A DNA stretch of 64,000 nt from NCBI GenBank assembly GCA_028278455.1, contig JANQEH010000153.1, positions 1 through 64,000 on the forward strand. The letters are read 5' to 3'. This DNA comes from a bacterium. GTDB lineage: Bacteria > SM23-31. Positions 6,406 to 46,261 of the stretch are shown here, piece after piece. Under the pieces are notes generated by a model. It was not told the origin of the DNA. It made no database searches and was given only the letters and a program-made list of their open reading frames with translations. Both the position numbers and the translations under genes were made by a program. Numbering within the stretch: position 1 is the stretch's first letter; each line of letters starts with the position of its first letter.

Positions 6406-6406
6406 A

Positions 6407-9037: not shown

Positions 9038-9092
9038 AATTATATGCAGAAACTGAGATACTCAGTATTTTCCCAATCACACTGGCATTTCA

Positions 9093-10526: not shown

Positions 10527-10533
10527 CTTTCCC

Positions 10534-12071: not shown

Positions 12072-12074
12072 TAT

Positions 12075-15836: not shown

Positions 15837-15923
15837 TACCATTATCCTTTCGAGTTCAAATTAAAGAGCAATACTATTTTTTGGAAAAACTTTCTTCAAA
15901 ATTCTCCTGAATCATTCCACTGT

Positions 15924-16826
15924 TTATTGTTTGAACTGATCGAGAAATTCAGCATTTACCCAGTATACATCTCCATTTGAAGAGTAGAAGAAATACTTTC
16001 CATCAGGAGATACTATCGGACAGAAATCGTAATGCTCCGTATTGATCTCATTACCGAGGTTTACAGGATCGGTCCATGATCCGTCATCCTCTCTGTAGCA
16101 GATATAAATATCACCGCTGCCGAAAGAGTCGGGTCTATCTCCTGACACAAAAATTAAATATGATTCGTCAGGAGAGATAAAGACGTCACCTTCATTATAT
16201 TCCGTACTGATCTTACCGCCAAGGTTCTGCGGTTCTGTAAAATTACCATCCACGTATTCGGATCTGTAAATATCCCGTTTACCGAATCCACCGTCCCTGT
16301 TAGAGTTAAAATAAACTGTCATATCAGAAGTAACGGACGGGTATATCTCGTTATCATCCGAATTCAGAGGAGGCCCTGGATCGTACGGTTCAGACCATCC
16401 ATCACCTGTTTTATTACATATCCAAATATCATGGGGGGGACCGAAACCTTCAACAGGTCTTTTCGAAACGAAAAATAGCATTGAGCCATCTGGAGATATA
16501 AATGGATCTGCTTCGCTGAAATTTCCAGAATGCACAAAAACTGCAGGTTCAGTCCATTTGTTATCTATTCTCTTCATCTGCATAATCTTATAGATATCAT
16601 CTCTAACAGAATAGAAAAATTCATTACCATCAGGGGAGAATACAGCATTGATCTCGTTCTTTTCCGTAGAAACAATTCCAGGTGCAAATATCTCCGGTGT
16701 CATACCGGGAGGATCCTGTCCCAGGTAAGGACCAGAAAGAGCAGGGAAGCTCCCGTTAGATAAACAATTGAGATTAAAAAGCAAGGTTGATAGAATGATA
16801 CCTGCAATTCGAAAAATAATTTTCAT
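15924..16826 (-). CDS. PD40 beta-propeller protein A
   Basis: A 300 aa secreted protein and the last propeller gene of the array. After a signal sequence (MKIIFRIAGIILSTLLFNLNC) comes the array's signature SGPYLGQDPPGMTPEIFAPG, then TolB/PD40-type blades (FSPDGNEFFY, ISPDGSMLFF, ISPDESYLIF, VSPDGKYFFY) and the closing strand GDVYWVNAEFL. ATG at 16826 has GGAAGA upstream; an in-frame ATG at 16841 overlapping the previous stop is also possible. PD40 propellers bind proteins or ligands and have no active site; no partner can be named. Confidence 0.85.
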   Translation of the reverse strand: MKIIFRIAGIILSTLLFNLNCLSNGSFPALSGPYLGQDPPGMTPEIFAPGIVSTEKNEINAVFSPDGNEFFYSVRDDIYKIMQMKRIDNKWTEPAVFVHSGNFSEADPFISPDGSMLFFVSKRPVEGFGPPHDIWICNKTGDGWSEPYDPGPPLNSDDNEIYPSVTSDMTVYFNSNRDGGFGKRDIYRSEYVDGNFTEPQNLGGKISTEYNEGDVFISPDESYLIFVSGDRPDSFGSGDIYICYREDDGSWTDPVNLGNEINTEHYDFCPIVSPDGKYFFYSSNGDVYWVNAEFLDQFKQ

Positions 16827-16837
16827 TGGTCTTCCAT

Positions 16838-17797
16838 TCATTTTCGTTTTTCATTTTTTATTTTATTAATAACCTTTGACTCCATCCAGTAAATATCCGA
16901 ATATTCTGTCGTTCCCCTCATGAATAAGATGTATTTTCCATCGGGAGTAATATTGGCCCTGTTTTCCGCATGGAGTGTATTAACCTCCCTGCCCATATTA
17001 ACAGGTTCTGTCCATGTACCGTCTGAATTTCTGAATGTAATATAAAGGTCAAAGCTCCCAAAACCGCCGGGCAAGTCAGCGCAGAAGATCAGGTAACTTT
17101 CATCCGGAGAGATAACCGGATCGAGTTCACGCTCTTCTGAATTTACTGGTCTACGAAGATTTTCTGAAATAATATATTCGCCGTTAACAAGTTCAGACCG
17201 GTATATATCTGATCTGCCGAATCCACCTTCTCTCCCGCTCATAAAATAAAGCGTTCCATCTGCTGTCATGGATGCATAGCTGTCTCCCGTACCTGAATTT
17301 ATAGGGGAGCCTAATCTTTGAGGTTTTCCCCAGCCATCATTTGCCAGTTCAACTTTCCAAATAGCTGACTTCAGAGAATTATCGGATATTTCTTCTGAGC
17401 ATTTTGAAGTAAAAAGAAAGGAACGAGAATCCGGGGCGGTAGTAAAATTGAACGGGTGCAGATCGTTGAAGGGGACAACTGTTGGTTCAGTCCAATTATC
17501 ATCCCTTAGTTCAGTAAATAGAGTAGGTGAGTTATAGAAATCACTTTCGCTAAAATCTTCACCTGTATATTCCTGGCGCTTAAAAATGAAAGCTTTACCA
17601 TTTTGAAGAAAACCCGAGCAGTATTCGAAATCGGAAGATGAAATTAAACCGGGTGCCAGCAGTTCAGGTTTAATTCCGGGTGGTTTCTGCCCGAAATACT
17701 GTCCGCGAAAGATATCAGATCCATCACCTGATCCGCATCCAGCAGAAAAAAATAATAACAGTATAATATTTAAGTAGTATCTTCTTATACAAATCAT
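16838..17797 (-). CDS. PD40 beta-propeller lipoprotein B
   Basis: A 319 aa lipoprotein: signal MICIRRYYLNIILLLFFSAGC with a good lipobox, then RGQYFGQKPPGIKPELLAPG. Blades include GGFGRSDIYRS and ISPDESYLIFCADLPGGFGSFDLY. The opening CSGFLQNGK places it with protein F in one subfamily. The frame could also begin at a GTG at 17809, but the ATG at 17797 is better spaced from GGA. It lies 25 nt after the DUF5916 gene, or 13 nt if the GTG is used. Confidence 0.87.
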   Translation of the reverse strand: MICIRRYYLNIILLLFFSAGCGSGDGSDIFRGQYFGQKPPGIKPELLAPGLISSSDFEYCSGFLQNGKAFIFKRQEYTGEDFSESDFYNSPTLFTELRDDNWTEPTVVPFNDLHPFNFTTAPDSRSFLFTSKCSEEISDNSLKSAIWKVELANDGWGKPQRLGSPINSGTGDSYASMTADGTLYFMSGREGGFGRSDIYRSELVNGEYIISENLRRPVNSEERELDPVISPDESYLIFCADLPGGFGSFDLYITFRNSDGTWTEPVNMGREVNTLHAENRANITPDGKYILFMRGTTEYSDIYWMESKVINKIKNEKRK

Positions 17798-17822
17798 TTC
17801 ATTTTCCACAGATTTCTATTCT

Positions 17823-20057
17823 CTACTTTACGAAGGTATATGTATATTTCAGCATGAGAGCCCTGTTACCGCTTCGCGGGAGCATAGGATAGAGCTTCTT
17901 CCTGTCGGTATTGAAAGATTCATTGTATACCAGCCAGAGGTCATTACCTTCACTTTGATTATACCTGAACCTTATATTCGGTGTGAGTTGATCACTGCTG
18001 CTGTTATACTGAATAAAGCCGTTCAATGATAATTTCCTGTTCAAAGCTCCCTCTATCCGGAGCTGCGCCAGGTGTATATTGAACTCTTGGTTACGGTCAG
18101 AAAACCTACCTGCTTGATAGCTGTAATTTGCCCTCAAGTTCAGATACTTTGAAATACTCCAATTAGGTTCAATCCTGAATGACTGCATAGTACCGTCAAA
18201 GAACTCACCAAGTGTTAATACTATCCAGGTATTAATAAGTTTTCCCGGAGGTGTACTGAATCCACCCTCAAAGCGATGGTAAGTATAACTTCCTTCAGGA
18301 ATAACCGTGTTTTCGGGGAAATTAAGCGGATCCCTGATGTCCTCATACCAGACTTCAGCATCCGCAAATATAAATGATCCGTTCTTCCAGCTGATATCGG
18401 TTCCCCATTCCCCCCAACCGGATTCAATACTCCCGTCACTGTTTCTTGTTGATACGCTCCCAAGTATCTGCATTGGGCTGTATTTTCTAATTGGAGATTC
18501 ATCACTGGCATAAGGATCCCACTGAACCTGCCATGCGTAATCTGTAAAATCCTTACGTGTAGTATATCCCATCTCCGGGATAAAATCCTTCCCGGCCCTG
18601 GCGATCGATAAATTGTAATTCAATCCCATCCTTGTTCTTCTTTCCCAGAGAGCGCTGAATGATGATGCCGCAATAAAATCAAATGAATGATCCCGTGATA
18701 TATCCCGGTCTGCAGTTTGTGCCCATCTTAGTGTGAGATATTCATTATTAACTATTCTGAATATCCCGTCAAGGCCATATGCCAGGTTGTAACTTCCGTC
18801 ATCTCCGATCCTGCTTGTTAGAATTCCACCGGCGTAAGAGTTCTCGTTTATAACCTGTTTCCGCAGCCTCAATACACTGAAGTTCTCCGAAGGCAGTCCC
18901 TGATCTTTCTCTGTCTGCATACTGAATGCTCCAATATCCCATGGCCCCGACCTTCCCACCATCCGTATCCCCCCGAGGATCCGTACTGCCTTTCCGTCTT
19001 GAAGCCCTATCGTACGGCTGTGGAAAAGCCTGTCCCTGTCATATAATCCTGATGTCTTGAAATAAAATATTCCTGATCTCTCCTGAAAGAATCTCCTTTT
19101 TTCTGGGAAGAACAGTGAAAATCTGGACAGGTTGATCTGCTCATCGTCAGCTTCAATCTGGGCGAAATCCGTATTTACCGTCGCATCTAAAGTCAGATTA
19201 TTGGTAATATTATACTTGACATCCAGTCCGATCTCCTGATCATTTATATCGTCTGTGGTATAGCCGGTCTCACTCTCATTAAGCAGAGAATTTCGGGAGG
19301 TGCCACCAAGGAGATAGGGTGTAAAGTAAACAGGATTTTGCGATTTAATATTTTCGAGTACAGCCTCCATTGCCTGTGATGGAGTCTGGTTTACATAATC
19401 AGGCGATATCTCCGGGTAGATCATTATTTCATTTTTCCTGTCAATGTACCTGAATGTGATCAATCCAAGAGTAACAATATCACTCTCTACATTGAAACCG
19501 AGGCTTGAAAAGGGGATTTTCATCTCTGAGAACCAGCCTTCATCGGTTACCACAGATCTTACATCCCAGAATGTATTCCAGTCAATATTCGATTGATAAC
19601 CATCATTCGAAATAGCTTTATCACCTCTTATACCTGCAGGATTTGTCCAGAAACAGAGAGCATTTTCTTTGTCATTGAATGTGTCTACTACCAGGCAGAA
19701 TGTGTCGTCATTATTAGTTCTGTCCCGGTATAATGAATGTGTATGGATCATGTTAGGCTCTGAATCATAGAATCTGCCTGATGCATAAAGATAGTTTTCG
19801 TCATATGCAATCCTGATCTCAGTTCTTTCCGAATGTTCACCCCGGAATGTTGGCAGATACATTGTCAGGGGCAAAGGCTTTATATCATTCCAGGCCGGCT
19901 CATCACTTAGTCCATCCAGTATTATTTCACTTTCGATCCTGTCCAATTTCAGAGTTCCCTGTGCGACTGCCAGCCGGCAGGGTATTACATTAATTAATAC
20001 AATAATAAATGCGCAAAATATACTGCGCATCAAGATGCGATTTTCAAGTTCAACCAT
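17823..20057 (-). CDS. DUF5916 outer-membrane barrel protein with CBM9-like N-terminal domain
   Basis: A 744 aa exported protein. A signal peptide (cleavage near LAVAQ) is followed by a carbohydrate-binding family 9-like domain (IILDGLSDEPAWNDI, YDENYLYASGRFYD, TNPAGIRGDKAISNDG), then FSQ/FFPEKRRFFQERSGIF and a long region of alternating amphipathic strands ending in aromatic YTYTFVK, as expected for an outer-membrane barrel. Start at 20057 is supported by AAGGAG 7 nt upstream. It interrupts the PD40 array between C and B. Relatives are common in Bacteroidota and related phyla; their function is unproven. Confidence 0.85.
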   Translation of the reverse strand: MVELENRILMRSIFCAFIIVLINVIPCRLAVAQGTLKLDRIESEIILDGLSDEPAWNDIKPLPLTMYLPTFRGEHSERTEIRIAYDENYLYASGRFYDSEPNMIHTHSLYRDRTNNDDTFCLVVDTFNDKENALCFWTNPAGIRGDKAISNDGYQSNIDWNTFWDVRSVVTDEGWFSEMKIPFSSLGFNVESDIVTLGLITFRYIDRKNEIMIYPEISPDYVNQTPSQAMEAVLENIKSQNPVYFTPYLLGGTSRNSLLNESETGYTTDDINDQEIGLDVKYNITNNLTLDATVNTDFAQIEADDEQINLSRFSLFFPEKRRFFQERSGIFYFKTSGLYDRDRLFHSRTIGLQDGKAVRILGGIRMVGRSGPWDIGAFSMQTEKDQGLPSENFSVLRLRKQVINENSYAGGILTSRIGDDGSYNLAYGLDGIFRIVNNEYLTLRWAQTADRDISRDHSFDFIAASSFSALWERRTRMGLNYNLSIARAGKDFIPEMGYTTRKDFTDYAWQVQWDPYASDESPIRKYSPMQILGSVSTRNSDGSIESGWGEWGTDISWKNGSFIFADAEVWYEDIRDPLNFPENTVIPEGSYTYHRFEGGFSTPPGKLINTWIVLTLGEFFDGTMQSFRIEPNWSISKYLNLRANYSYQAGRFSDRNQEFNIHLAQLRIEGALNRKLSLNGFIQYNSSSDQLTPNIRFRYNQSEGNDLWLVYNESFNTDRKKLYPMLPRSGNRALMLKYTYTFVK

Positions 20058-20108
20058 TGTACTGCTCCTTAATAATAAATGATACCTGATACAAACTGTA
20101 TTTTATTG

Positions 20109-21062
20109 CTATTTAATTCCTTTCGGTTTGAGAGTGTCGATTATCTTACTGTCTATCCAATACGTCTTACCGATGTCATCATTGGGATAATACTTGAGAT
20201 AGAAAAAATATTTTCCATCAGGGGTAAGCTGAGGACAGTTCTCGTTTGCGTCACTATTGATCACAGGCCCCATGTTTATCAGCTCTGTCCAAGTCCCATC
20301 TTTTTTCCTGAAACTTACGTATAGATCACTTTCCCCATTATTGTCCGGCCTGTTCCAGCAGGATACGACAAGAAAACTTTCATCAGGAGATACACACATG
20401 TCTCCTTCTGAATACTCTGTATTAACAGATCTTCCCAGGTTTACTGGTACGCTGTATTTACCGTTAATAAACCTGATACGATGCAGGTCACCCTTTCCAA
20501 CATTTCTTTCATTTGTCTGGTTAAAATAGATCGTTCCATTATATGCGATCCCCGGATATCCTGAAATAAGAAATCCCTCATCTGTTTCAACCGGCATAGC
20601 CTCACTCCAACCATCTTCAGTGCGGTATGCATACCATAGATAGGATCTCTCTTCCTTAACCGTATTCCCCGGGAGAGGTCTCCAGGAACGCCAGAATGCC
20701 CTGTAGCCGTCGGGGGATAGACTTATATCGTTGTCTGTATGATCACTATCGAATGGAAGTATCTCAGGTTCACCCCAGACATTATTAGTCCTTCTCATCC
20801 ACACTAATTCAAAATCTCCGTTCCAGTCTATATCGGCTACAAAATAATATTCACTGCCGCAGGGTGAAAATACCGAGCAGAATGAGCTTTTATATCTAGA
20901 CAATACTTCCGGGGCAAAGTTTTTTGCTGTCATCCCTGGAGGTGTTTGCCCCAGGTATGGGCCTCTGAGTACAGGGAACTCGGAGGTTGCTTTTTGAGCA
21001 AAAGAATCTCCACTCATAAACATCGCTGCAATGATCAGTGCTATTATAGATCTTTTATTCAT
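20109..21062 (-). CDS. PD40 beta-propeller protein C
   Basis: A 317 aa secreted protein with a cleavable signal (MSGDSFAQ) rather than a lipobox. Signature: RGPYLGQTPPGMTAKNFAPE. It has the subfamily marks shared with G and I: SWRPLPG in blade 2 and NNGESDLYVSFR in blade 4. Its start overlaps the stop of D by 4 nt (ATGA), so the two are translationally coupled. The last strand reads GKTYWIDSKIIDTLKP. Confidence 0.87.
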   Translation of the reverse strand: MNKRSIIALIIAAMFMSGDSFAQKATSEFPVLRGPYLGQTPPGMTAKNFAPEVLSRYKSSFCSVFSPCGSEYYFVADIDWNGDFELVWMRRTNNVWGEPEILPFDSDHTDNDISLSPDGYRAFWRSWRPLPGNTVKEERSYLWYAYRTEDGWSEAMPVETDEGFLISGYPGIAYNGTIYFNQTNERNVGKGDLHRIRFINGKYSVPVNLGRSVNTEYSEGDMCVSPDESFLVVSCWNRPDNNGESDLYVSFRKKDGTWTELINMGPVINSDANENCPQLTPDGKYFFYLKYYPNDDIGKTYWIDSKIIDTLKPKGIK

Positions 21063-22015
21063 TTTCCTTTCCGCCTTTCTATATGACTTTTAATCTCTTC
21101 GATGATCTTTGCATCTATCCAGAAGATATCAGCGTCTCCTCTTCGTCTGCTTGTGAAGAAAAGATACTTACCATCTAAAGTTACACTGGGACATATTTCA
21201 CCTGATGTAGAGTTCACCTTCGGTCCCATATTAACTGCTTTTGTCCATTTCCCGCTTTCAACTCTGAAGGAGATATATAAGTCCTGTCCGCCTATTGTGT
21301 CATCCCTGTCCTTCGAGCTGAAAATAATATAACTTTCATCCTGAGCGACATAGGAATCCCAGTCATGTTTTCCGCTGTTGACTGAAAGATCAAGTACCTC
21401 GGGTTTTTGATACTGATCATCGATAAATCTGGAAACATAAATATCACAGCCTCCATGCCCGTCAATTCTTTCAGAGAAGAAATAAAGATTACCGTTCGTT
21501 GACACCGAGGGATAATTCTCACTTTTATCTGTGTTGATGACGGATCCTATATTTTCGGGATCAGACCATTTAATTCCGGAAAGCCTGTTTATGTAGTAGA
21601 TATCAAGCCTGCTAAGCATATTACCCCCGGGTTTTGCTGGCCTGTTAGAGCCGAAGAATATTGTATTGCCGTCAGGTGAGATCGTAAAATCCCTGTCGGT
21701 ATATTTCCCGGAAAAGGGGAGAGGTGCAGGTCTCGTCCATATACCATTGGATTCATGTGTACAGAAGATGGACATTTTCCCGTTATGCAGCCTGTTGAAG
21801 TAGAACTCTTTACCATCCATAGTAAAAGCTGCGCACATCTCCGGTTCATCTATTATGGAAATGATACCGTCCATGAATATTTCAGCCATTTCAGACGGCG
21901 CTTTTTGTCCTAAATATGCCCCGCTCAGGACGGGAAAGCGCTCCTGCACAGTAAAGGAATATAAAAATAAGGCCACTGAAAATACTGTAACGGTATATAA
22001 TGACTTCTTTAACAT
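21059..22015 (-). CDS. PD40 beta-propeller protein D
   Basis: A 318 aa secreted protein (signal MLKKSLYTVTVFSVALFLYSF). Signature SGAYLGQKAPSEMAEIFMDG is changed from the PPGM form, making D one of the divergent members. Blades: FTMDGKEFYF, ISPDGNTIFF, VSTNGNLYFF, DDTIGGQDLYISFR, VTLDGKYLFF and finally ADIFWIDAKIIEEIK. It overlaps C by 4 nt and follows E after 11 nt. Confidence 0.86.
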   Translation of the reverse strand: MLKKSLYTVTVFSVALFLYSFTVQERFPVLSGAYLGQKAPSEMAEIFMDGIISIIDEPEMCAAFTMDGKEFYFNRLHNGKMSIFCTHESNGIWTRPAPLPFSGKYTDRDFTISPDGNTIFFGSNRPAKPGGNMLSRLDIYYINRLSGIKWSDPENIGSVINTDKSENYPSVSTNGNLYFFSERIDGHGGCDIYVSRFIDDQYQKPEVLDLSVNSGKHDWDSYVAQDESYIIFSSKDRDDTIGGQDLYISFRVESGKWTKAVNMGPKVNSTSGEICPSVTLDGKYLFFTSRRRGDADIFWIDAKIIEEIKSHIERRKGK

Positions 22016-22026
22016 TATTTCCCCTG

Positions 22027-22989
22027 TTATTTTATATCAGCCGGTTTGAATGTATCAATTATTCTCGCATCAACCCAGTAAATATCCTGATTCCCGTTTC
22101 CCGGGCTGTTCATTATCTTAATTTTCTCTTCAAGAGTGATCGGATTCTCAGAGTAATCCTTATGGATCGTTCTGCGACTCGAGAAGAAGAAGTATTTACC
22201 GTCTGATGTAACAAATGGATAAACGTCAGAGGCGATAGAATTTATTTTATCTCCCATATTTACTGCATTGGTCCATGAACCGTCTTCTCTTCTAAAACTG
22301 ATGAAAATATCCCAGCTTCCATAGCCGTCATCCCTCCTGCAGAACATCAGATTGCTTTCGTCAGGCGCAATAAACGGATCCTGCTCAGAGTATCTTTCGG
22401 TACTAACTGAATTGCCCAGTTTCTCCATCTCAGAATAGCTGCCGTTCACAAATCTGGATAACCACATGTCATTTTCATGTGCCAAATACAGATTACCGTT
22501 AGCCGCTATTGTAGGGTATCCCTGGATTTCCGGATCAAGGGATTTCAATTCCCCCCATCCCGTCTCAGTTTTTTCCGAAATACTTATTTTCCAGATTGTC
22601 TGGGGATCGTTTACCCCGTAAATGGGATCCGGTGAGCATACAAACATTCTCTGACCGTCGGGAGATATATCAAAACACTCGATTACTTTGCCGGAGAAAT
22701 GGGCAATAACCTGTTCGGTCCAGCGCCCATTAATCTCTTTCATGGTAGTGATCACCGGAAACGGAGCGCCCCAGATCTGCAGGAACAGTTCCTTGCCATC
22801 AGGTGAAAATACAATTTTAAACTCATCATGACAGGTTGAAATTATACCGGGGGCAAATATTTCCGGAGTCATTCCCGGCGGTTTCTGACCAAGATAGGGA
22901 CCGATCAGCTTGCTGTCTTCATCCTTGCTGCTGCATCTGATCAGCGATAATAGTAGCATTAAAAATACTATAAGATTTCGTATTCTCAT
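22027..22989 (-). CDS. PD40 beta-propeller lipoprotein E
   Basis: A 320 aa lipoprotein (MRIRNLIVFLMLLLSLIRC). The frame is open further upstream, but ATG at 22989 is preceded by AGGTGA and gives a proper signal. Signature GPYLGQKPPGMTPEIFAPG. It belongs with H and L: these three carry an insertion before the last strand (YSENPITLEEKIKI, then SPGNGNQDIYWV) that other members lack. Thirteen nt separate it from F. Confidence 0.87.
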   Translation of the reverse strand: MRIRNLIVFLMLLLSLIRCSSKDEDSKLIGPYLGQKPPGMTPEIFAPGIISTCHDEFKIVFSPDGKELFLQIWGAPFPVITTMKEINGRWTEQVIAHFSGKVIECFDISPDGQRMFVCSPDPIYGVNDPQTIWKISISEKTETGWGELKSLDPEIQGYPTIAANGNLYLAHENDMWLSRFVNGSYSEMEKLGNSVSTERYSEQDPFIAPDESNLMFCRRDDGYGSWDIFISFRREDGSWTNAVNMGDKINSIASDVYPFVTSDGKYFFFSSRRTIHKDYSENPITLEEKIKIMNSPGNGNQDIYWVDARIIDTFKPADIK

Positions 22990-23002
22990 TTTTTCACCTG
23001 AT

Positions 23003-23956
23003 TTATTTAATGCCATCCGGTTTAAGGCTCTCGATAATCCGTGCATCAATCCAGTAAATACTTCCGTCCTCACTCCTGTTACTCGTAAAAAACAGGTACT
23101 TCCCGTCTGGTGTTACATACGGCCTGAATTCATATTCACTCGAGTTAACATCAGGCCCCATATTTATCATCTCAGTCCATGATCCATCCTCTTTCATGAA
23201 GCTGATATAAAGATCGTATTTTCCGAGTCCTCCCGGTTTGTTCTGGCATACGATCAGGTAGCTTTCATCCGGGGCGATCCACGGATCCTGGTCGCTTCCC
23301 GATGTATTTATAACCGGGCCCAGATTTTCAGGGGGACCGTATTTACCGTCTTGGTTTCTTGATCGGTAAACATCCGACCTCCCGTAACCTCCGACACGAC
23401 TGCTCATATAATAAATAGTCCCGTTCAACGCTGTTGCGGGGTAGTTTTCATAGTACTTGTTAGTATTGATCGATCTTCCAAGCATTATCGGTTCGGTCCA
23501 GCCGTTTTCCTGCAGGCTGGTTACCCAGATATTTGCCTGTTCGAGAAGCCGGCTTGTCGTTTTATCGGGAGATTTTAATGTCGTGAAGTACAAGATCTGG
23601 CCACCGGGACCTACGGTGAAATTGTACGGCATATATTCGCTGAACGGGGCGATCTCAGGTTTTGTCCACCTGCCGTCTTTAAGGTATGTAACGTAAGTCG
23701 GCCTCAGCCTCCAGTCAGTCCCTCTTCTCATTGAAGTGAATAAATATACAGTCCCGTCATTTAAGAATCCCGAGCATCCATGACCTTCATTTTTATTGAA
23801 TAAACCGGGAGGATCGAATAATTCAGCCTTCATTCCCGGAGGATCCTGCCCGAGATAGGGTCCTGACAATACAGGGAAAGATCTTTCCTGTGAATAAACA
23901 TTTATAGAAGAAAGTAGGGTGCATACCGTCACTAATAAAAATATACGCTTTTTCAT
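23003..23956 (-). CDS. PD40 beta-propeller protein F
   Basis: A 317 aa secreted protein with signal MKKRIFLLVTVCTLLSSINVYSQ split before ERSFPVLSG; signature GPYLGQDPPGMKAELFDPPG. CSGFLNDGT in blade 1 and the GGLGKYDLYISF blade link it to B. Other blades: GGYGRSDVYRS, IAPDESYLIV, VTPDGKYLFFTS. The end is GSIYWIDARIIESLKPDGIK. It follows G after 11 nt in the same operon. Confidence 0.87.
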   Translation of the reverse strand: MKKRIFLLVTVCTLLSSINVYSQERSFPVLSGPYLGQDPPGMKAELFDPPGLFNKNEGHGCSGFLNDGTVYLFTSMRRGTDWRLRPTYVTYLKDGRWTKPEIAPFSEYMPYNFTVGPGGQILYFTTLKSPDKTTSRLLEQANIWVTSLQENGWTEPIMLGRSINTNKYYENYPATALNGTIYYMSSRVGGYGRSDVYRSRNQDGKYGPPENLGPVINTSGSDQDPWIAPDESYLIVCQNKPGGLGKYDLYISFMKEDGSWTEMINMGPDVNSSEYEFRPYVTPDGKYLFFTSNRSEDGSIYWIDARIIESLKPDGIK

Positions 23957-23967
23957 TAAATCATTCC

Positions 23968-24897: not shown

Positions 24898-24908
24898 AAA
24901 TCTATCCC

Positions 24909-25892
24909 TTATTTCAACTCATCAGGTCTGAGGCCTTCAATTATCTTTGCGCTTACCCAGAAAACATCTTCGCTTCCGTGTCCCGGCTGGCCAAGAATCT
25001 CTAATTTTCGTGCAAGAGTCAGCGGTGGATTGGAGTACCGGGGGAGTGTCCGTTCCATACTGGAAAAGAACAGGTATTTACCATCGGGTGTTACCCACGG
25101 GCATCCTTCACCTGATTCCTTTGAATTCACTCCCTCGCCTAAGTTCTGAGGCTCAGTCCAAATGCCGTCATTCTTCCGGTAACTTACGTAAAGATCACCG
25201 TATCCATTACTGCCGGGCCTGAAAGACTGGAAGATGATATAACTTTCATCAGGCGCTATATAAGGATCGTTCTCCCAGTGCTCAGTATTTACAGGTGCAG
25301 GAAGTCTTTCTGCCTTGCTATAGCCCCCGTCTGTATAACGCGAATAATAAATATCCCCTTTATTGTTCTCAGCACGCTTAAAAAAGTATATGTTTCCATT
25401 ATTAGCTATTGTGGGACATGCTCCCCTTAGATCCGGGATTTTCTCCGGCTTTCCCCAACCGTTTCCGCTTCGACTGATCACCCAGATAGTCCAGTGATCG
25501 AGGGCAGGTCCGTTGCCGGATGGCGGAGCGCTCCAGCTTATCAGGATCTTATTACCATCAGGGGACAGGGAGCACTTACCGTCGTAATTACCGGAAAATC
25601 CGGCAACTTCAGGTGCTGTCCAGCCACCGTTCAATTCTTTCATGGTTAATGTCATTCCATGTGGGGGGCCCATCATTCTCCAGAATAGTTCTTTTCCGTC
25701 CGGAGTAAATGAAACACCGTGTTCCTCATATCCTGTAGATATCAGTCCCGGTGCAAAAATCTCCCTCTGCATACCAGGTGGATCCTGACCTAAATAAGGA
25801 CCATGTAATGCTGGTAGTTCTGATTCTTTGTCGCAGCCAGAAGTAATTAGAAACGACAGTATAATAATTTTGCAGAACATTGTTTTCTTCAT
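24909..25892 (-). CDS. PD40 beta-propeller lipoprotein H
   Basis: A 327 aa lipoprotein (MKKTMFCKIIILSFLITSGC). ATG at 25892, 10 nt after gene I, has AAAGGGA upstream and is preferred to an in-frame ATG at 25916. Signature HGPYLGQDPPGMQREIFAPG. It has the E/H/L insertion (YSNPPLTLARKLEI, QPGHGSEDVFWV). Other blades: FTPDGKELFW, LSPDGNKILI, IAPDESYIIF, VTPDGKYLFF. Confidence 0.87.
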   Translation of the reverse strand: MKKTMFCKIIILSFLITSGCDKESELPALHGPYLGQDPPGMQREIFAPGLISTGYEEHGVSFTPDGKELFWRMMGPPHGMTLTMKELNGGWTAPEVAGFSGNYDGKCSLSPDGNKILISWSAPPSGNGPALDHWTIWVISRSGNGWGKPEKIPDLRGACPTIANNGNIYFFKRAENNKGDIYYSRYTDGGYSKAERLPAPVNTEHWENDPYIAPDESYIIFQSFRPGSNGYGDLYVSYRKNDGIWTEPQNLGEGVNSKESGEGCPWVTPDGKYLFFSSMERTLPRYSNPPLTLARKLEILGQPGHGSEDVFWVSAKIIEGLRPDELK

Positions 25893-25902
25893 TGTTTTCC
25901 CT

Positions 25903-26862
25903 TTATTTTGAATCAACTGGCCTAAAAGTCTCTATAATCTTCGCATCTACCCAGTACGTATCGCATGAAGCAACATCATTTGATACGTGAACTCTCATAA
26001 AGAATATGTATTTCTCATCAGGACTGAGCATTGCATTGTTTTCGTTATAAATTGTATTTACAGGTTCCCCCATGTTCCTTAAAGCTGACCATGTTCCATC
26101 TTTTTCACGAAAACTGATATAGAGATCACTTTCTCCACTATTTTCCGGTCTGTCCCAGCCAGCTACAATAATAAAACTTTTATCCGCCGCCACACATACA
26201 TCACCCTCTATATACTCTGTATTTAAAACACTGCCCAAACTCACAGGAAATGAGTAGCTGCCGTTCACGAATTCAGACATATATGTATCAGCATTGCCCT
26301 TATCGTTTTCTCCCCTGTATCTGAAAAATAATGTTCCGTCACTGGAGATAGAAGGATGGCCTGCCGGCAGGTATTCACCGTCGTATATTACAGGTTCGGC
26401 TTCACTCCATCCGGTATTGTATCTGCGCACATTCCAGATGTAAGAAGTAAATTCAGGATCAATTTTTCCAGGTAACGGTCTCCAAGATTTGAAAAATATC
26501 CTGTATCCGTCATGACTAATACAAAGATTATTGCTTACATGGTCTGAATTGAATGATACAGGTTCGGGTTCAGTCCATACGTTTCCAACCATTCTCATTG
26601 ACATGATTTGATCTGTCTTTTTCTCCAGATCAGAAACCGTGTAATAGAATTCCCGACCGCAAGGAGAGAAAACACAGTCATAAGCCCATTCCGGTTGTTT
26701 TTTTGATAGAATTTTCTGGGCAAATATCTCCGGTGTCAATCCGGGCGGTTTCTGCCCGAAGTATGCTCCGTGATAACCGGTTGGCCTGCTATTCAGCTTA
26801 AAACCGCTCGAAATACTTAAAACAATTATTAGAGCGGCCATCTTTATTTTAGTGATTCTCAT
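25903..26862 (-). CDS. PD40 beta-propeller protein I
   Basis: A 319 aa secreted protein (signal MRITKIKMAALIIVLSISSG). Signature HGAYFGQKPPGLTPEIFAQK. FSPCGREFYY, SWRPLPGK and NSGESDLYISFR put it in the C/G/I/J subfamily. The ATG overlaps the stop of J by 4 nt. The closing strand CDTYWVDAKIIETFRP keeps the array pattern. Confidence 0.87.
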   Translation of the reverse strand: MRITKIKMAALIIVLSISSGFKLNSRPTGYHGAYFGQKPPGLTPEIFAQKILSKKQPEWAYDCVFSPCGREFYYTVSDLEKKTDQIMSMRMVGNVWTEPEPVSFNSDHVSNNLCISHDGYRIFFKSWRPLPGKIDPEFTSYIWNVRRYNTGWSEAEPVIYDGEYLPAGHPSISSDGTLFFRYRGENDKGNADTYMSEFVNGSYSFPVSLGSVLNTEYIEGDVCVAADKSFIIVAGWDRPENSGESDLYISFREKDGTWSALRNMGEPVNTIYNENNAMLSPDEKYIFFMRVHVSNDVASCDTYWVDAKIIETFRPVDSK

Positions 26863-27821
26863 TTTCTAAAAACTTCAAGTTTAAGTTCATCTATAATCTT
26901 CGCGTATACCCAGTAGAAATCAGCACTATCAGCTTCAGGATCAAACCGGGTGAAGAATAAATATTTGCCGTCGGGAGTAACCTGCGGGCAGTATTCCACA
27001 AGTTCAGTATTTATCGTTTCTCCCAGATTTATTTCTTCACTCCAGCTGTCGTCATTCAGTCTGAATGTTATGTACAGATCACCCCATCTGCTCCCTCTTG
27101 TATTGTCGGGGTGTCTCGAACAGGAGATGATCATATAGCTTTCATCAGGCGCAACATACAGATCGCCTTCAGTATTGATGGAATCAACGGCGGAGAATAC
27201 ATGTTGGGGTGCTCCGTATTTTCCATCAACAGGCTTAGACCGGTATATTCCGCCTTTATCTTTTCCCCTCACAGGAAAGTAAAGGTTCATATTTTCAGCC
27301 ATTGATGGGTATATTGAAATCACAGGTTTATCCCCGCACAACAGCGGTTGAGGTTTACCCCAACCATTTTCAGTTCTTTCAGCGAACCATAGGAAAGCTT
27401 CGTTGTCAGGTTTTTCCCAACCGGGGAGGTCTCTGAAAGATCTGAATATGATCGTTTTACCGTCAGGCGAAAGACACATATCGTTATCCCAGGTCTCGCT
27501 GTTTATTGATAAGAGTACAGGCTTAGTCCATTTATCATTGATTCTTCTCATTCTCTTGATTCCGCCAGAAAGGTCATCCGCCTTCTCAAAATGAACAAAA
27601 TAGAATTCATTGCCGTCAGGTGAGAAAACAGTACCGAATGCCCTCATGGATTCTGTGTTCAGTAATCCCGGAACGAAAATTTCCGGAATTATTCCCGGAG
27701 GTTTTTGACCGAGATATGATCCTCTCAGATTTAGGTATTCATCATTCTGGATATCGCATCCAATGAGAAGAATGATGGCTAGTAGGATATAATATGTATT
27801 GAGTTTGTTCTTGGGATCCAT
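26859..27821 (-). CDS. PD40 beta-propeller lipoprotein J
   Basis: A 320 aa lipoprotein (YYILLAIILLIGC). Signature RGSYLGQKPPGIIPEIFVPG. It resembles I in blades 1-3 (FRSFRDLPGWEKP corresponds to the SWRPLPG segment) but blade 4 has lost GESD (RGSRWGDLYITFR). Its ATG shares one base with the stop of K (TAATG), so the two are coupled. Closing strand: ADFYWVYAKIIDEL. Confidence 0.87.
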   Translation of the reverse strand: MDPKNKLNTYYILLAIILLIGCDIQNDEYLNLRGSYLGQKPPGIIPEIFVPGLLNTESMRAFGTVFSPDGNEFYFVHFEKADDLSGGIKRMRRINDKWTKPVLLSINSETWDNDMCLSPDGKTIIFRSFRDLPGWEKPDNEAFLWFAERTENGWGKPQPLLCGDKPVISIYPSMAENMNLYFPVRGKDKGGIYRSKPVDGKYGAPQHVFSAVDSINTEGDLYVAPDESYMIISCSRHPDNTRGSRWGDLYITFRLNDDSWSEEINLGETINTELVEYCPQVTPDGKYLFFTRFDPEADSADFYWVYAKIIDELKLEVFRK

Positions 27822-29647
27822 TATTTACCCTTTTCTGGTCTGAATTTCTCGATAACTCCTGCGTCTACCCAGAAGATATTTCGTTTTCCATTGCCGGGTG
27901 CTTTTTCCATACCTGCAGACTTATCGAACTTTTTGTTAGAAGTAAAAAATAGATATTTCCCATCCGGTGTTACATAGGGTATCCATTCCGAACCGGAGGA
28001 ATTGAATTCTTTCCCCATGTTGACCGGTTCAGTCCATTTGCCGCTCATTTGTTTGAATGAAATATACAAGTCTTCCTTCCCATAGCCTCCCGGTCTGTCG
28101 GAGCACAGGATCATATAACTTTCATCCGGGGCGACAAATGCATCGAGGTCAATATATTCTGTATTCAGGGGATACCCGACATTTTCAACAGAAGAATACC
28201 TGCCATTTAACAGCTTTGCCCTGTATGTATCGGCTTTACCGTGTCCTCCGCTCCGTCTGCTGAAAAAATAGAGAGTATGATCAGCCGTTAAACATGGGTA
28301 GCTGTCATGCATTCCGCTATTCACTTCAGGGCCAAGACGGACGGGCTTTTGCCATTTATTGTCCTTTTTTTCCATGAGGTATATATAACAGTTCCTAAGC
28401 TTTTTCCCTCCGGTCTCAAGCGGACGCTGCGATGAGAAAACAAGCTTGTCTCCATCCGGAGAAAGCAGGAAATCTCCGTCATATTCAGGATCCATATGCG
28501 GAAACCTCTCAGGCTTGCTCCATATCCCGTTTACCTGTTCCGTAATAAATATCCCGGTTCTATCACCGCCCCATCTGCTGAATATAAACGTGTTACCATC
28601 TTCAGAAAACCATGAACTTCTCTCCGTATCGTTTGTGGAAATGATTCCCGGGGCAAAAATTTCGGGTGTCAATCCCGGCGGTTCCTGTCCGAGATAAGGA
28701 CCTCTAATTTCTCCAGTGCTGCTGCTTTTTGGTCTGTATTTTTCAATGATCCCGATGTCAACCCATGAGATATGATCTTGAGATGAGTAAAGTAAGTACT
28801 TTCTGTCGGGAGACAGCATCGGACAGAATTCAATTGTTTTTGTATTGATCTCCTCGCCCATGTGTATTCTTTTAGCCCAGGAACCGTCATCATTTCTGAA
28901 GCTTATAAAGAAATCCCCGCTGCCGATACATTCGGGGCTTCCTGACACCGAAATTATGATCCAGCTTTCATCAGGTGCGATCAGGACATCACCTTCTTTG
29001 TAAATTGAATTGATATTGGGGCCGAGGTTGACCGGTTCCAGGTATTTACCATTCTTCCATTCAGCCATATAAATATCAGTTTCCTTACTTAAACACCCTT
29101 CGCGCTCAGACTGAAAATAAAGATTTCCGTTTGCAGCCGGGCATGGATAGTTCTGATGTCTACCGTCATTTATTCCGTACTTCAAATGAACCGGTTCACC
29201 CCAGCCATCACCCTGCCTCTCTATCATCCAGAGATTAGAACGGCCTGTAAGTCTTTTCCCGCCCGTTGTTACCGGCCTGTTTGAGCCGAAAAAACATTTT
29301 TCTCCATCGTATGAGATACTGATATCCACGTCACTGAACACACCGGAGAAAGGAGCTGTTTCAGGATTTATCCATACTCCATTAACCTGTTTAGTATATT
29401 TGATTGTGTGTTTTCGACCGGAACTCACGGCGTAGTAGAATTCCTTACCATCAGGAGTGAAAACAGAGTTGAGCTCACTTCCGTCAACTGAAATAAATCC
29501 GGGCGCAAAGATTTCAGGTTTCATTCCCGGCGGCTCCTGCCCCATGTACTTTCCTCGCGGATTCTCCTGAAGACAGCCTCTAACAGGGAAGAGTACAATT
29601 AGTATTGTAATAGAGGTGATAATAAGCAGATATTTAGACTTAATCAT
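27821..29647 (-). CDS. Double PD40 beta-propeller lipoprotein K
   Basis: A 608 aa lipoprotein holding two complete propeller units in one chain. Signal MIKSKYLLIITSITILIVLFP leads to a lipobox cysteine (VRGC). Unit 1 opens RGKYMGQEPPGMKPEIFAPG and closes HISWVDIGIIEKYRP; unit 2 opens RGPYLGQEPPGLTPEIFAPG near 28,705 and closes NIFWVDAGVIEKFRP, with a short linker between. ATG at 29647 has GAGG upstream. It is best explained as the fusion of two neighbouring array genes, in which the second lost its signal peptide and start. Reading through the junction shows no stop, so it is not an annotation artefact. Confidence 0.9.
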   Translation of the reverse strand: MIKSKYLLIITSITILIVLFPVRGCLQENPRGKYMGQEPPGMKPEIFAPGFISVDGSELNSVFTPDGKEFYYAVSSGRKHTIKYTKQVNGVWINPETAPFSGVFSDVDISISYDGEKCFFGSNRPVTTGGKRLTGRSNLWMIERQGDGWGEPVHLKYGINDGRHQNYPCPAANGNLYFQSEREGCLSKETDIYMAEWKNGKYLEPVNLGPNINSIYKEGDVLIAPDESWIIISVSGSPECIGSGDFFISFRNDDGSWAKRIHMGEEINTKTIEFCPMLSPDRKYLLYSSQDHISWVDIGIIEKYRPKSSSTGEIRGPYLGQEPPGLTPEIFAPGIISTNDTERSSWFSEDGNTFIFSRWGGDRTGIFITEQVNGIWSKPERFPHMDPEYDGDFLLSPDGDKLVFSSQRPLETGGKKLRNCYIYLMEKKDNKWQKPVRLGPEVNSGMHDSYPCLTADHTLYFFSRRSGGHGKADTYRAKLLNGRYSSVENVGYPLNTEYIDLDAFVAPDESYMILCSDRPGGYGKEDLYISFKQMSGKWTEPVNMGKEFNSSGSEWIPYVTPDGKYLFFTSNKKFDKSAGMEKAPGNGKRNIFWVDAGVIEKFRPEKGK

Positions 29648-29688
29648 TTTAATCCTCAATAAATTTCTTGTGTTGGGGTAAAACAATA

Positions 29689-30501
29689 TTACTTTCGAAA
29701 AACATATTTTAAGCCGTTGAAAAGGCTCAGATAGGGGACATGTCCGTCATTTTTAATCATTTCGAGCTCACATCGGAATCCGCTCATTCTTTTACCGGTT
29801 ATTCGGGCAAAGTACTCCGGTACAAACTCAGTAGTCCTCGAATAATCGTGTTCACCGTAGATCATAAAGAGCGCCCTGTTCTTAAATCTGTTAAGATCAT
29901 CAATTCCGTCTATTAATCTGTTCATATAGTCCGGACAATGACCTATCATGGGGCTTCCGGCTATTCCATAGTTAATTCTGTCAGGCCTTGTGAGAATAGC
30001 ATAAACTGTGAAAAGTCCGGCATTTGAACCTCCAAAGAGCACATTTGGAGATTCAGTTCTGTATTTGGAGTCAAAATATGGCATGAGTTCTTCGGTAATG
30101 AAACCGAGGAACTTATCTGAGCCTCCTGAATTCGGTCTGTCAATAACTTTTGCCGGGATCATGTCCCTGTTCCTGACAGTATTGCAGATACCGACTATTA
30201 TCATCCTTGGAATATCATTTAATTCATTCATATGATCAACTGTCCCGTAAATACGGGCATAAAACGGTTTCCATTCGGCATCAAGAACGTACAGAACAGG
30301 ATATTTTTCGTTAGAATTATTGTAATCATGAGGCAGGGTGATCTTTATTGTCCGCTCTTCTTCAAGAATTTCGGAATAGATCCGGTCATATTTTCCGATC
30401 ACTATCTTGCTGTTTTTTTCCTGTGCAATTGATCCCAAGGGAATCCACAGTACAAAAACCAGCATGATTCGGAGAAATAACTTATCATGTTTAATATACA
30501 T
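29689..30501 (-). CDS. Exported esterase-family alpha/beta hydrolase
   Basis: A 270 aa protein of the putative esterase family (PF00756; esterase D and enterochelin esterase relatives). Signal peptide to about residue 27 (PLGSIAQ). The family start (RIYSEILEEERTIKITLP, then YPVLYVLDAEW) is present, the nucleophile is S159 in FGGSNAGLF, and a C-terminal NDGHVPY supplies the histidine. The serine motif is GxSxA rather than the common GxSxG. ATG at 30501 has AAAGGGG. It sits inside the PD40 array between L and K, so it is co-expressed with propellers; its natural ester is unknown. Confidence 0.82.
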   Translation of the reverse strand: MYIKHDKLFLRIMLVFVLWIPLGSIAQEKNSKIVIGKYDRIYSEILEEERTIKITLPHDYNNSNEKYPVLYVLDAEWKPFYARIYGTVDHMNELNDIPRMIIVGICNTVRNRDMIPAKVIDRPNSGGSDKFLGFITEELMPYFDSKYRTESPNVLFGGSNAGLFTVYAILTRPDRINYGIAGSPMIGHCPDYMNRLIDGIDDLNRFKNRALFMIYGEHDYSRTTEFVPEYFARITGKRMSGFRCELEMIKNDGHVPYLSLFNGLKYVFRK

Positions 30502-30533
30502 TTTTACCCCTTTACTCACATACCAATTATAAA

Positions 30534-31529
30534 TTACCGTAATTCTTCAACAATCTTAGTACTTACCCAGTAGATATCCTCCATACCATTTCCAGGGCTG
30601 GTCTTTATCTTTACAAGGTCATTATATTTCAGACGTGTATTAGAATAATTTTTAAAATGCAGTCTTCCACTGGAATAGAAAAAATATTTACCATCCGGGG
30701 AAAGTACCGGACAGTGTTCATTCCTGTTTGAGTTGATCTTCTCTCCCATGTTTTTCAGTTCAGACCACCCACCAGTATCATCTCTGAATGATATATAAAG
30801 GTCTCCTGAACCGTGTGAATCCGGACGTCCGTATACGGTCACAATAATGAAGCTTTCGTCTGGGGCGATACAAAGGTCTCCTTCAAAATTTTCTGAATTG
30901 ACCGGGGCTCCGAGATTGACCGGATTTGAGAAATCAGATCCTTCCGGAATACAGTAATAAATATCGGAAGCTCCAAGACCTCCTTGCCGGGATGAACTGA
31001 AGTACATATTTCCGTTATCAGCAAAAATAGGATAGAATTCATTTCCGGTCGAATTGATGTGATTTCCGAGTCGTACCGGATCTGACCATCCATTCCCTGA
31101 TTTTCTGACATACCAGATATCTGCATTATTTTCAGGTTCTCCCTGTCCTGATACAGGCCTGAATGAGCAGAAATACAGCCTGTCCTCATCAGGGGATAAT
31201 ATCATGTCTCCATCCCAGTATTTACCTGAGAAATTTATTATTGCCGGTTCCGACCAGGTATTGTTCACCATTTTTGTATACATAATCGCGGTAAACGGTA
31301 TCCCGGAGATACAGTAATAGAATTCATCACCGGCTTTTGAAAACACTGAACTAAATTCGGAAAAACCTGTTGAGATGAATTTAGGCGCGAATATTCTCGG
31401 CTCCGTTAAGGGTTTAGCCAACCCGAAATAATCACCTGTCATTTCAGGATTTCCTGCTCTTTCCACACATGAATAATTTAAGAAAAGTATCAGAAATAAT
31501 AGAAATACAGTGATTATGTACTTGTTCAT
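30534..31529 (-). CDS. PD40 beta-propeller lipoprotein L
   Basis: A 331 aa lipoprotein (MNKYIITVFLLFLILFLNYSC). The signature is degenerate: TGDYFGLAKPLTEPRIFAPK has lost the Q and the PPGM. The rest is typical: LSPDEDRLYF, GGLGASDIYY, IAPDESFIIV, LSPDGKYFFY. It has the E/H/L insertion (YSNTRLKYNDLVKI, SPGNGMEDIYWV). ATG at 31529 is chosen over the longer frame because it gives a clean lipoprotein signal 10 nt after gene M. Confidence 0.86.
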   Translation of the reverse strand: MNKYIITVFLLFLILFLNYSCVERAGNPEMTGDYFGLAKPLTEPRIFAPKFISTGFSEFSSVFSKAGDEFYYCISGIPFTAIMYTKMVNNTWSEPAIINFSGKYWDGDMILSPDEDRLYFCSFRPVSGQGEPENNADIWYVRKSGNGWSDPVRLGNHINSTGNEFYPIFADNGNMYFSSSRQGGLGASDIYYCIPEGSDFSNPVNLGAPVNSENFEGDLCIAPDESFIIVTVYGRPDSHGSGDLYISFRDDTGGWSELKNMGEKINSNRNEHCPVLSPDGKYFFYSSGRLHFKNYSNTRLKYNDLVKIKTSPGNGMEDIYWVSTKIVEELR

Positions 31530-31539
31530 TTTATACTCA

Positions 31540-32493
31540 CTATCTGATATAGTCAGGTTTGAACTCTTGGATAATTTCTGCGCTAACCCAGTATATTTCT
31601 CTGGTGCCGGTCTTGTCACTTGTGAAGAAGAAATATTTTCCGTCTAATGTAACATTGGGCCTGTTATCCCATCCGGCTGAGTTTATCTTATTACCCATAT
31701 GTACCGGTTCTGTCCAGGAGCCTTCAGCTGAACGAAAAGATATAAACAGATCATCATTTCCTAGACCTCCGGGCTTGGTTGAGCAAAAGATAAGATAACT
31801 TTCATCTGGAGCAATGTAAGGATCCCATTCGTCATGAAGAGTGTTTATTATTTCACCTATATTTGCGGCATCAATGTGCTTGCCGTTTACATTTCTCGAT
31901 ATGAAAATATCCGATTTGCCAATTACTCCCGGCCTTCTGCTGAAAAAGTACAGTGTTCCGTCATTTGCGGCAGAAGGATAGGATTCATGGTATTGAGTAT
32001 TTACATGGCCTCCTAACATTTCAGGTTCACTCCATTTGTCTCCAGCAAGTTCACTCTTCCATAAACTGGCTTCCGATGAAGGTTTGGTTTTACCTGTAGC
32101 TGGGCGTCTGGAAGCAAAATAAATAGTCCTGCCATCCGGTGAAATAGTGAAATCACTCTCGAGAAATTTGCTATCCCATTGAACCGTAACAGGCTGAGAC
32201 CACCTGCCGCTATTTGTTCTCGTAATAAATATTTCTTTTGCGTAATTACCGGACTTTCTGAAAATGAACATATCGGCATTTTTGGAGAATACTGAGCTAC
32301 CGGAAGAATTTCCATCGGATATGATTCCCGGAGCAAATAACTCCGGTTCCATTCCAGGAGGATCCTGTCCCAGATAGGGGCCGGACAGTTTTGTGAAATC
32401 GAAAGCAGGATCTTGTATACCGTTGAAGTTCAGAAAAGGTATGACAAGTACAACAATTATAATACAAAAACTGCGATTTTCAGGTAATCTCAT
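31540..32493 (-). CDS. PD40 beta-propeller protein M
   Basis: A 317 aa secreted protein starting MRLPENRSFCIIIVV, with GGAG 5 nt before the ATG. Signature SGPYLGQDPPGMEPELFAPG. It is close to N along its whole length (GSSVFSKNADMFIFR, ASRRPATGKTK, STKPGGLGNDDLFISF, TREIYWVSAEII), so M and N are the clearest recent duplicate pair. In both, blade 1 has lost the SPDG turn. Confidence 0.87.
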   Translation of the reverse strand: MRLPENRSFCIIIVVLVIPFLNFNGIQDPAFDFTKLSGPYLGQDPPGMEPELFAPGIISDGNSSGSSVFSKNADMFIFRKSGNYAKEIFITRTNSGRWSQPVTVQWDSKFLESDFTISPDGRTIYFASRRPATGKTKPSSEASLWKSELAGDKWSEPEMLGGHVNTQYHESYPSAANDGTLYFFSRRPGVIGKSDIFISRNVNGKHIDAANIGEIINTLHDEWDPYIAPDESYLIFCSTKPGGLGNDDLFISFRSAEGSWTEPVHMGNKINSAGWDNRPNVTLDGKYFFFTSDKTGTREIYWVSAEIIQEFKPDYIR

Positions 32494-32515
32494 TATTGCT
32501 CCGAAATTTAAATCT

Positions 32516-33469
32516 TTATCTGATTTCATCGGGTTTGAATGTATTGATGATTTTTGCGTCAACCCAGTATATTTCCCTGTTGCCGGTTCTGTCACTTGTG
32601 AAGAACAGATACTTACCATCCGGGGTGACATAAGGCCTGTTCTGTGATTTTTTTGAATTCAGCTTATCACCCATATGTACAGCTTCTGACCATGTATCAT
32701 CTTTTAATTTGAAAGATATATACATGTCATCTCTGCCAAGACTTTCCGGTTTTGTAGAGCTGAATATTATATAACTCTCATCGGCAGCGATAAACGGGTC
32801 CCATTCTTCATACTCGGTATTAATTGCTTTGCCCATATTGATAGCGTCTATATATTTTCCGTTTTTTAATGTTGATAAGTAAATATCCGCTTTCCCCAGA
32901 CCTCCGGGGCGGCGGCTGAAGAAACACATTGTACCGCCTCCGGTAAAAGTAGCATATGATGCATGGTACCGGAGATTGATCTTGTCAACTATAATTTCAG
33001 GCTCACTCCACCCGGTTTTAGTAATCTCGGTTTTCCAGATGTTAGCCTCTTCAAATTCATCAGTTTCTCCTGCAAGTGGGCGTCTGGATGTGAAATACAG
33101 GGTCTTACCGTCAGGAGCAATTGCAAAATCACCTTCCCGGTGTTTACTGTCCCATGATACCTGGACAGGTTGAGTCCATCTTCCGTTTACCATATGAGTG
33201 ACGAATATTTCTCTGGCCGAATCACCGATCAGCCTGAAAATAAAAATATCACCCTTTTTCGAAAATCCTGAGCTGCCGTTAAATCCATCTGTTGAAATTA
33301 TTTCAGGAGCGAAAACTTCCGGAATCATTCCCGGAGGTTTCTGCCCCAGGTAAGGTCCTGTCAGTTTCGAAAAATCGGCAGAAAACTCCTGTTTCTCAGA
33401 GAAATTGAATGAAAAGGCCGATAGAAACAGGATTGAAGAAAATACAATACGATTTTTTGATAGTCTCAT
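32516..33469 (-). CDS. PD40 beta-propeller protein N (first of array)
   Basis: A 317 aa secreted protein (MRLSKNRIVFSSILFLSAF). Signature TGPYLGQKPPGMIPEVFAPE; blade 1 GSSGFSKKGDIFIFR; later IAPDGKTLYF, GGLGKADIYLS, VTPDGKYLFF, NREIYWVDAKIINTFKP. Two adjacent ATG-type starts exist (33472 and 33469); the second fits GGGTAC spacing and the MRL start of M. It is the first propeller gene in transcription order, so the array promoter should lie in 33,470-33,607 or further upstream at the kinase. Confidence 0.86.
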   Translation of the reverse strand: MRLSKNRIVFSSILFLSAFSFNFSEKQEFSADFSKLTGPYLGQKPPGMIPEVFAPEIISTDGFNGSSGFSKKGDIFIFRLIGDSAREIFVTHMVNGRWTQPVQVSWDSKHREGDFAIAPDGKTLYFTSRRPLAGETDEFEEANIWKTEITKTGWSEPEIIVDKINLRYHASYATFTGGGTMCFFSRRPGGLGKADIYLSTLKNGKYIDAINMGKAINTEYEEWDPFIAADESYIIFSSTKPESLGRDDMYISFKLKDDTWSEAVHMGDKLNSKKSQNRPYVTPDGKYLFFTSDRTGNREIYWVDAKIINTFKPDEIR

Positions 33470-46260: not shown

Positions 46261-46261
46261 T

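Follow-up and report, generated by a model that had tools for sequence, protein, structure and literature searches.

What might a bacterium do with fourteen related propeller genes packed in one direction into a single run? The question is raised by contig JANQEH010000153.1 of a bacterium of the GTDB lineage SM23-31 (assembly GCA_028278455.1), whose first 64,000 nucleotides, analysed here as a whole and called the window, carry on the minus strand, at positions 15924–33472, an array of 14 genes that encode 15 propeller units of one PD40 family. The original prediction, made from the sequence of the window, took this array for a recognition or binding repertoire. Our preferred reading, which we put forward tentatively, is that of a regulated panel of exported five-bladed propellers that may act as non-catalytic, outer-membrane-associated binding or assembly subunits with fixed, different specificities.

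ORF (open reading frame) calls, translations and spacings bear out the tightly packed, one-directional run of 14 paralogous genes. Gene spacings within it are −4, 13, 51, −4, 11, 13, 11, 11, 10, −4, −1, 2, 14, 10 and 22 nt, i.e. −4 to +22 nt throughout with the single exception of 51 nt, and every reading frame is intact. After correction of over-long starts, which were reset from the leader sequences (to 22989, 25892, 31529, 32493 and 33469–33472), most single-unit proteins measure 305–335 aa, while one gene (27821–29686) encodes a double protein made of units 4 and 5. The 15 units align end to end and share 18 invariant columns. Two points of the predicted anatomy held in part. The run is compact and co-directional, yet it also encloses a DUF5916/CBM9 gene (17823–20057) and a PF00756 esterase gene (29689–30519). 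Likewise, the signal peptide or lipobox expected on each member is borne out insofar as the leaders are of the exported type, whereas a simple rule finds a lipobox in only five of the 14, the others resembling ordinary signal peptides, and unit 5, which forms the C-terminal half of the double protein, lacks a leader.

The PD40 blades are found in every unit: Pfam PD40 (PF07676) matches 15 of 15 (84–93 bits against a cut-off of 20.9 for the members checked singly), and the array shares with PD40 proteins the repeat, the (S/A)PD(G/E) turn and the DIY and W-P strands. An AlphaFold2 (AF2) model of unit 15 was confident, with a mean predicted local distance difference test score (pLDDT) of 91 and a predicted TM-score (pTM) of 0.84, and its predicted strand sets start at residues 62, 110, 166, 216 and 271, which amounts to five blades. 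Foldseek with this model matched propellers, the best being TolB (TMq ≤0.50, root-mean-square deviation 4.6), and a profile search of PDB sequences gave marginal matches only. The predicted fold is that of a five-bladed propeller to which no solved structure comes close. Among PD40 proteins, the array units belong to a subfamily of their own, five-bladed, exported and capped N-terminally by GxYxGQxPPG, for which there was no curated full-length model among the models searched.

Both ends of the proteins are conserved, the opening GPYLGQxPPG... as well as the last strand. The opening motif, however, is conserved family-wide (Y39 in 92%, P45 in 98% and F52 in 99% of sequences) and is not an element specific to the array. 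The linkers between blades follow the consensus W..P..NLGxxIN(S/T)xxxE, in which the distance between the conserved Asn and the acid is always five residues (160–165, 212–217, 267–272), and the opening segment ExFAPGxIST matches the NLGxxINTxxxE register, Ser58 lying five residues ahead of Glu63. Blade 5, in turn, stops at its own strand C, which is the shared last strand DIYWVDA. By register and by the predicted strands, the ExFAPGxIST half of the opening would thus be the missing fourth, closing strand of blade 5, and the two conserved protein ends are best explained by ring closure. Of the opening motif, which had been placed outside the blades altogether, only the GPYLGQxPPG half lies outside the repeat; conserved across phyla, it reads as a family hallmark rather than as a contact specific to this array.

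Variation between the units concerns one side of the propeller. Across 46 units, the A–B loops are constant in length in all five blades and the measured C–D loops constant within one residue, whereas the B–C loops are anywhere between 1 and 34 residues long. B–C and D–A loops share one propeller face, and length variation confined to one face agrees with the units having different binding faces. Orthologues mostly keep their B–C loop lengths (mean total difference 3.6 residues, versus 16.9 for array paralogues), with exceptions such as unit 5, whose blade-5 B–C loop has 21 residues versus eight in its orthologue. In units 3, 8 and 11, the blade-5 B–C loop is 32 residues long and closes with SPGNG/QPGHG ahead of the last strand; since this loop also occurs in their cross-phylum orthologues, it defines a subset of subfamilies. 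By these comparisons, the units of the array seem to present faces that differ from one another but are each fixed.

How old these faces might be is indicated by the relationships of the units. Neighbours are indeed strongly diverged, as had been noted (31–56% identity between adjacent units), yet this does not reflect local diversification: the units fall into ancient subfamilies, and other phyla have orthologues of these. In a propeller tree (IQ-TREE, 103 rows, bootstrap not fully settled), array units are interspersed with external genes and several have strongly supported sisters elsewhere. Aminicenantes bin34 provides the sister of unit 3 (30534–31529; support 100/97), unit 6 (26859–27821; 100/99), unit 10 (23003–23956; 100/100, 60% identity) and unit 11 (22027–22989, start corrected; 100/99, 61% identity), while unit 8 (24909–25892) is sister to a unit of Aminicenantes CSMAG_1370 (G051; 100/100) and unit 12 (21059–22015) to Aminicenantes genes (100/100, 57% identity). 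The sisters of unit 5 (27821–28714, the C-terminal half of the double protein) come from Maribacter, Marinimicrobia and Aminicenantes (100/90), and that of unit 15 (15924–16841) from Krumholzibacteriia (99/98). The only units that look like duplications internal to the array are the recent pair of units 1 (32516–33472) and 2 (31540–32493, listed as an ORF extending to 32631 before its start was corrected), which are 56% identical, and a trio of units 7 (25903–26862), 9 (23968–24897) and 13 (20109–21062). Unit 4, the N-terminal half of the double protein, lies at 28715–29686 and unit 14 at 16838–17809. Altogether, 12 of the 15 units have a closer relative in another lineage than any paralogue in the array (mean 52 versus 44% identity). 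We therefore rejected a lineage-specific tandem burst, and a tandem duplication signature was not seen in adjacent-copy similarity either (mean identity 37.6% for adjacent versus 36.8% for non-adjacent units).

Cross-lineage propeller orthologues are 44–61% identical, and those of units 11 and 12 adjoin each other in bin34 (L138), in swapped order relative to the window. For comparison, RpoB, which gave no match in the host assembly, was taken from the same-family genomes G001 and G002 instead. In the RpoB tree, the host family clusters with Calditrichaceae, Marinimicrobia and Bacteroidota, well apart from Aminicenantes. Between G002 and bin34, RpoB identity amounts to 46.5%, whereas several propeller orthologues reach 57–61% between the same lineages. 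This greater conservation of the propellers suggests horizontal exchange after the lineages split, and individual propeller subfamilies appear, by these identities, to have moved between phyla. As the GC content at third codon positions (GC3) of the array is like that of other window genes (0.41 versus 0.40), the exchange was probably not recent; a recent genomic island was ruled out by the same match together with the lack of any tRNA in the 64-kb window.

The propeller family has expanded throughout the host genome, and the array is one part of this. The host genome (5.28 Mb, 76% complete) holds ∼46 family units on 19 contigs, namely 15 in the array, eight on contig C112, four on C276 and the remainder in ones and twos. 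No member was found in two same-family genomes, both 63–79% complete and half the size of the host genome; the absence of the clustering from close relatives, which the original prediction had said would speak against it, is thus seen in these two incomplete and smaller genomes. In other genomes, the family is present in many phyla, with 1 to ∼15 matches per genome and clusters of up to ∼5 among the 25 genomes searched. Similar arrays elsewhere do exist as small clusters, which are common, while the 15 units in one operon and the 46 in one genome are the extremes seen. A broader survey of 386 genomes scored five candidates per genome and hence speaks to presence rather than copy number, and the phylum set around G087 comprised one genome. 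Besides, CP070751.1 (L091, L163–L166), a 5.2-Mb sequence titled Thermoplasmata archaeon, contains 13 family matches including an ankyrin fusion; its match to bacterial-type RpoB is weak, and these matches stem either from spread across domains or from faulty naming or binning.

Directly before the propeller run, on the same strand, lie adjacent genes for a histidine kinase of the LytS type (34391–35512; His_kinase and HATPase_c, PF06580 with E=2.7e-27), probably the first gene of the unit, and for a LytTR response regulator with a receiver and a LytTR DNA-binding domain (33608–34372; PF00072 and PF04397), an arrangement that resembles LytS/LytR systems; we found no characterised LytS/LytR system with propeller targets. 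The kinase gene is separated from the LytTR gene by 18 nt and the latter from the first propeller gene by 135 nt. On the far side, after a gap of 81 nt from the last propeller gene, the minus strand continues with genes for two proteins with twin-arginine translocation (TAT)-like leaders, one with an ATC_hydrolase domain (15231–15842; PF14196) and one of 130 aa (14817–15209). The longest terminator-like hairpin of the scanned region (14782–14755; 12-bp stem and T-rich tail) follows and probably marks the end of the transcription unit. Judged by spacing, everything from the kinase gene to this hairpin is likely a single transcription unit. A promoter scan returned the same count as shuffled sequences, a search for LytTR operators upstream of the kinase gene did no better than shuffles, and Rfam gave no match within 14000–36000.

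The DUF5916 protein encoded inside the run (PF19313 and PF06452) is predicted to combine an N-terminal CBM9-like domain with an outer-membrane beta-barrel. Its AF2 model, built from a nine-sequence alignment, has a pLDDT of 70 and many long antiparallel strands. Most Foldseek matches of this model are barrels of the outer membrane, namely LptD and TonB-dependent receptors, with low TM-scores; the N-terminal domain matched the putative carbohydrate-binding protein 4jpq (TMt 0.72). In the host genome, where the 5-kb surroundings of propeller loci make up a footprint of 3.9%, these surroundings contain five of the 13 DUF5916 genes (p=9e-5, although two of the five flank one cluster and are not fully independent) and three of the nine LytTR genes (p=0.004). 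The sole LytTR gene of bin34 is directly upstream of a four-propeller cluster, in the order and strand seen in the window, and a propeller is found within ∼2 kb of the only LytTR gene in a Zixibacteria genome, as it is in another Aminicenantes metagenome-assembled genome. Among closed external genomes, a LytTR gene is near a propeller in two of 12 cases, with 0.18 expected (p=0.014). Of the smaller neighbours, the 130-aa protein has its counterpart in bin34, where a homologue of 61% identity is encoded near a cluster of three propellers, and homologues of the exported esterase (PF00756, E=1.1e-18) adjoin propellers in L141, L152 and L177. PadR/permease modules, by contrast, were discarded as specific neighbours: with 121 PadR matches they are too common to inform, by a rough estimate. 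The recurrence of LytTR and DUF5916 genes thus offers testable partners for poorly understood families.

On our preferred reading, one transcription unit would supply the kinase, the LytTR regulator, the 14 propeller genes, the outer-membrane barrel, the esterase and the two small exported proteins. The kinase–LytTR pair might switch the propeller set on; each propeller, coming from an old subfamily that has a conserved binding face of its own, would be retained at the outer membrane, act alongside the CBM9-barrel DUF5916 protein and could there capture or position a different ligand or partner. Fusions favour a binding or scaffold role, since most of them join the propeller to interaction repeats: among the 33 fused proteins scanned, 22 carry ankyrin repeats, three TPR, two a metallo-beta-lactamase domain and one, a distant relative, an OmpA domain. 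Exported ankyrin–propeller fusions occur in the host genome itself (L119, 5875–7473 and 14243–15505; L122, 8435–10156; L127, 9211–11070), and the propeller cluster on C112 has such a fusion at both its start and its end. In another fusion (L040, 12710–14671, which equals L139, 9265–11226), an N-terminal domain of ∼350 aa precedes the propeller; by eye, this domain looks erythromycin-esterase-like, with no match in Pfam or NCBIfam.

A working analogy is offered by BtuG, a propeller lipoprotein encoded beside the outer-membrane barrel BtuB, which binds its ligand on a negatively charged face, caps the barrel and hands the ligand on (PMC10404256). The array likewise co-encodes a predicted outer-membrane barrel, yet this is a likeness and not membership: BtuG is seven-bladed and works with a TonB-dependent transporter, whereas the array is five-bladed and accompanied by DUF5916, with no Pfam match to a TonB receptor. 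Taken further, the propellers could be interchangeable parts of fixed specificity that dock on CBM9-barrel DUF5916 proteins in a LytTR-switched, horizontally exchanged capture system, i.e. a Sus- or BtuBG-like logic assembled from unrelated parts across Aminicenantes, Zixibacteria, Gemmatimonadota and the host phylum; we consider this extended version unlikely. The panel reading itself has several observations against it. The DUF5916 model is of modest confidence, only five of the 14 leaders have a lipobox by the simple rule, and the 135-nt leader between the LytTR gene and the first propeller shows no convincing direct repeats of a LytTR operator. Besides, the LytTR–propeller link is missing in most other genomes examined and, in Bacteroidota, which have 40–60 LytTR genes each, does not rise above background by a rough estimate, and the lack of an invariant catalytic set is compatible with different enzymes in different subfamilies.

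The last point touches on a reading we regard as rather unlikely, namely that the propellers are secreted hydrolases or lyases, each with its own substrate, like five-bladed glycosidases, and that the esterase and the CBM9-like domain belong to the same degradative operon. The five blades, the presence of these two components in the operon and weak GH43 matches in two members would suit such enzymes, but the best of these matches reaches 16.9 bits, below the Pfam gathering score of 32.2. Acidic residues do open strand A in all five blades, yet they are found in 54–84% of sequences and thus vary; no invariant catalytic set was seen. Most invariant residues are Trp, Asp and Gly with a structural role in the repeat, and outside such positions the sequences share neither a His or Ser nor an invariant acid. 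The prevalence of interaction repeats among the fusions likewise speaks against catalysis. Closer to known envelope biology, the units could be periplasmic adaptors for envelope assembly or secretion that bind outer-membrane or peptidoglycan-linked proteins, as the propeller parts of PorE or TolB do. The nearest curated full-length models for all 15 units are indeed CHU_0125 OmpA, PorE and then TolB; the first two, OmpA-PD40 lipoproteins of the type IX secretion system and envelope integrity, are the nearest curated relatives of the propeller part, TolB of the Tol-Pal system is likewise an exported PD40 propeller and the best structural match, and one distant relative carries an OmpA domain. 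However, the NCBIfam scores stay far below the cut-offs (114.4 versus 620, 90.7 versus 600 and 17.9 versus 343 bits, the first two being about one fifth), no array member has a Pfam match to OmpA, and TolB differs in its six blades and its N-terminal domain, which the array lacks, and matches with a TM-score of at most 0.50. PorE- and TolB-type factors usually come in few copies, quite unlike fifteen versions in one operon, and we hold the adaptor reading to be distinctly unlikely.

The recognition repertoire of the original prediction can also be taken in its stronger form, as surface propellers selected to differ, for instance in phage, predator or glycan recognition. Length variation on one side and the high copy number, with 46 units in one genome, would agree with this. 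Orthologues in other phyla, however, mostly keep their loop lengths, and at matched scaffold identity the variable face of array pairs is no more diverged than that of other pairs in the well-filled bins (identities of 20.4 versus 20.0, 22.3 versus 22.3 and 24.8 versus 25.3%). Four array pairs at 50–56% identity were lower on the variable face (24.2 versus 30.2%), within one standard deviation, whereas the sole recent duplicate pair, units 1 and 2, is more conserved there (52.8 versus 38.8%) and has a dN/dS of ∼0.16, with dS saturated. A raw ratio of variable-face to scaffold identity (0.76 for orthologues versus 0.52 for paralogues) was confounded by overall divergence and was replaced by the matched comparison. 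Selection for diversity thus seems improbable. Neutral inflation of a gene family in a large genome, with no function at the operon level, appears still more improbable: the host does tolerate large families, among them the 121 PadR matches, many paired with duplicated permeases, yet all frames in the array are intact, the subfamilies are conserved across lineages at 44–61% identity, and the same regulator and barrel neighbours recur elsewhere.

In the literature searched, we found no paper on DUF5916 or on propeller arrays of this kind. The units belong to a large and widespread family of exported propellers without an assigned function or a close solved structure, and as they represent reusable subfamilies shared between phyla, a single cultured bearer could reveal the function for all. 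While the host is represented solely by a metagenome-assembled genome, the family does have cultured bearers, among them Aquimarina, Aureisphaera galaxeae, Larkinella terrae and Ohtaekwangia koreensis. Elsewhere in the window, at 285–14675 and 45925–62702, PadR regulators are paired with ADOP-like permeases of ∼870 aa, a combination that is frequent genome-wide; the best NCBIfam match of these permeases is TIGR03434, at 313 versus 622 bits. Finally, within the first of these regions, an EcoRII-C type endonuclease gene stands beside a C5 cytosine methylase gene on the minus strand (9753–11571), which is probably a restriction-modification pair.

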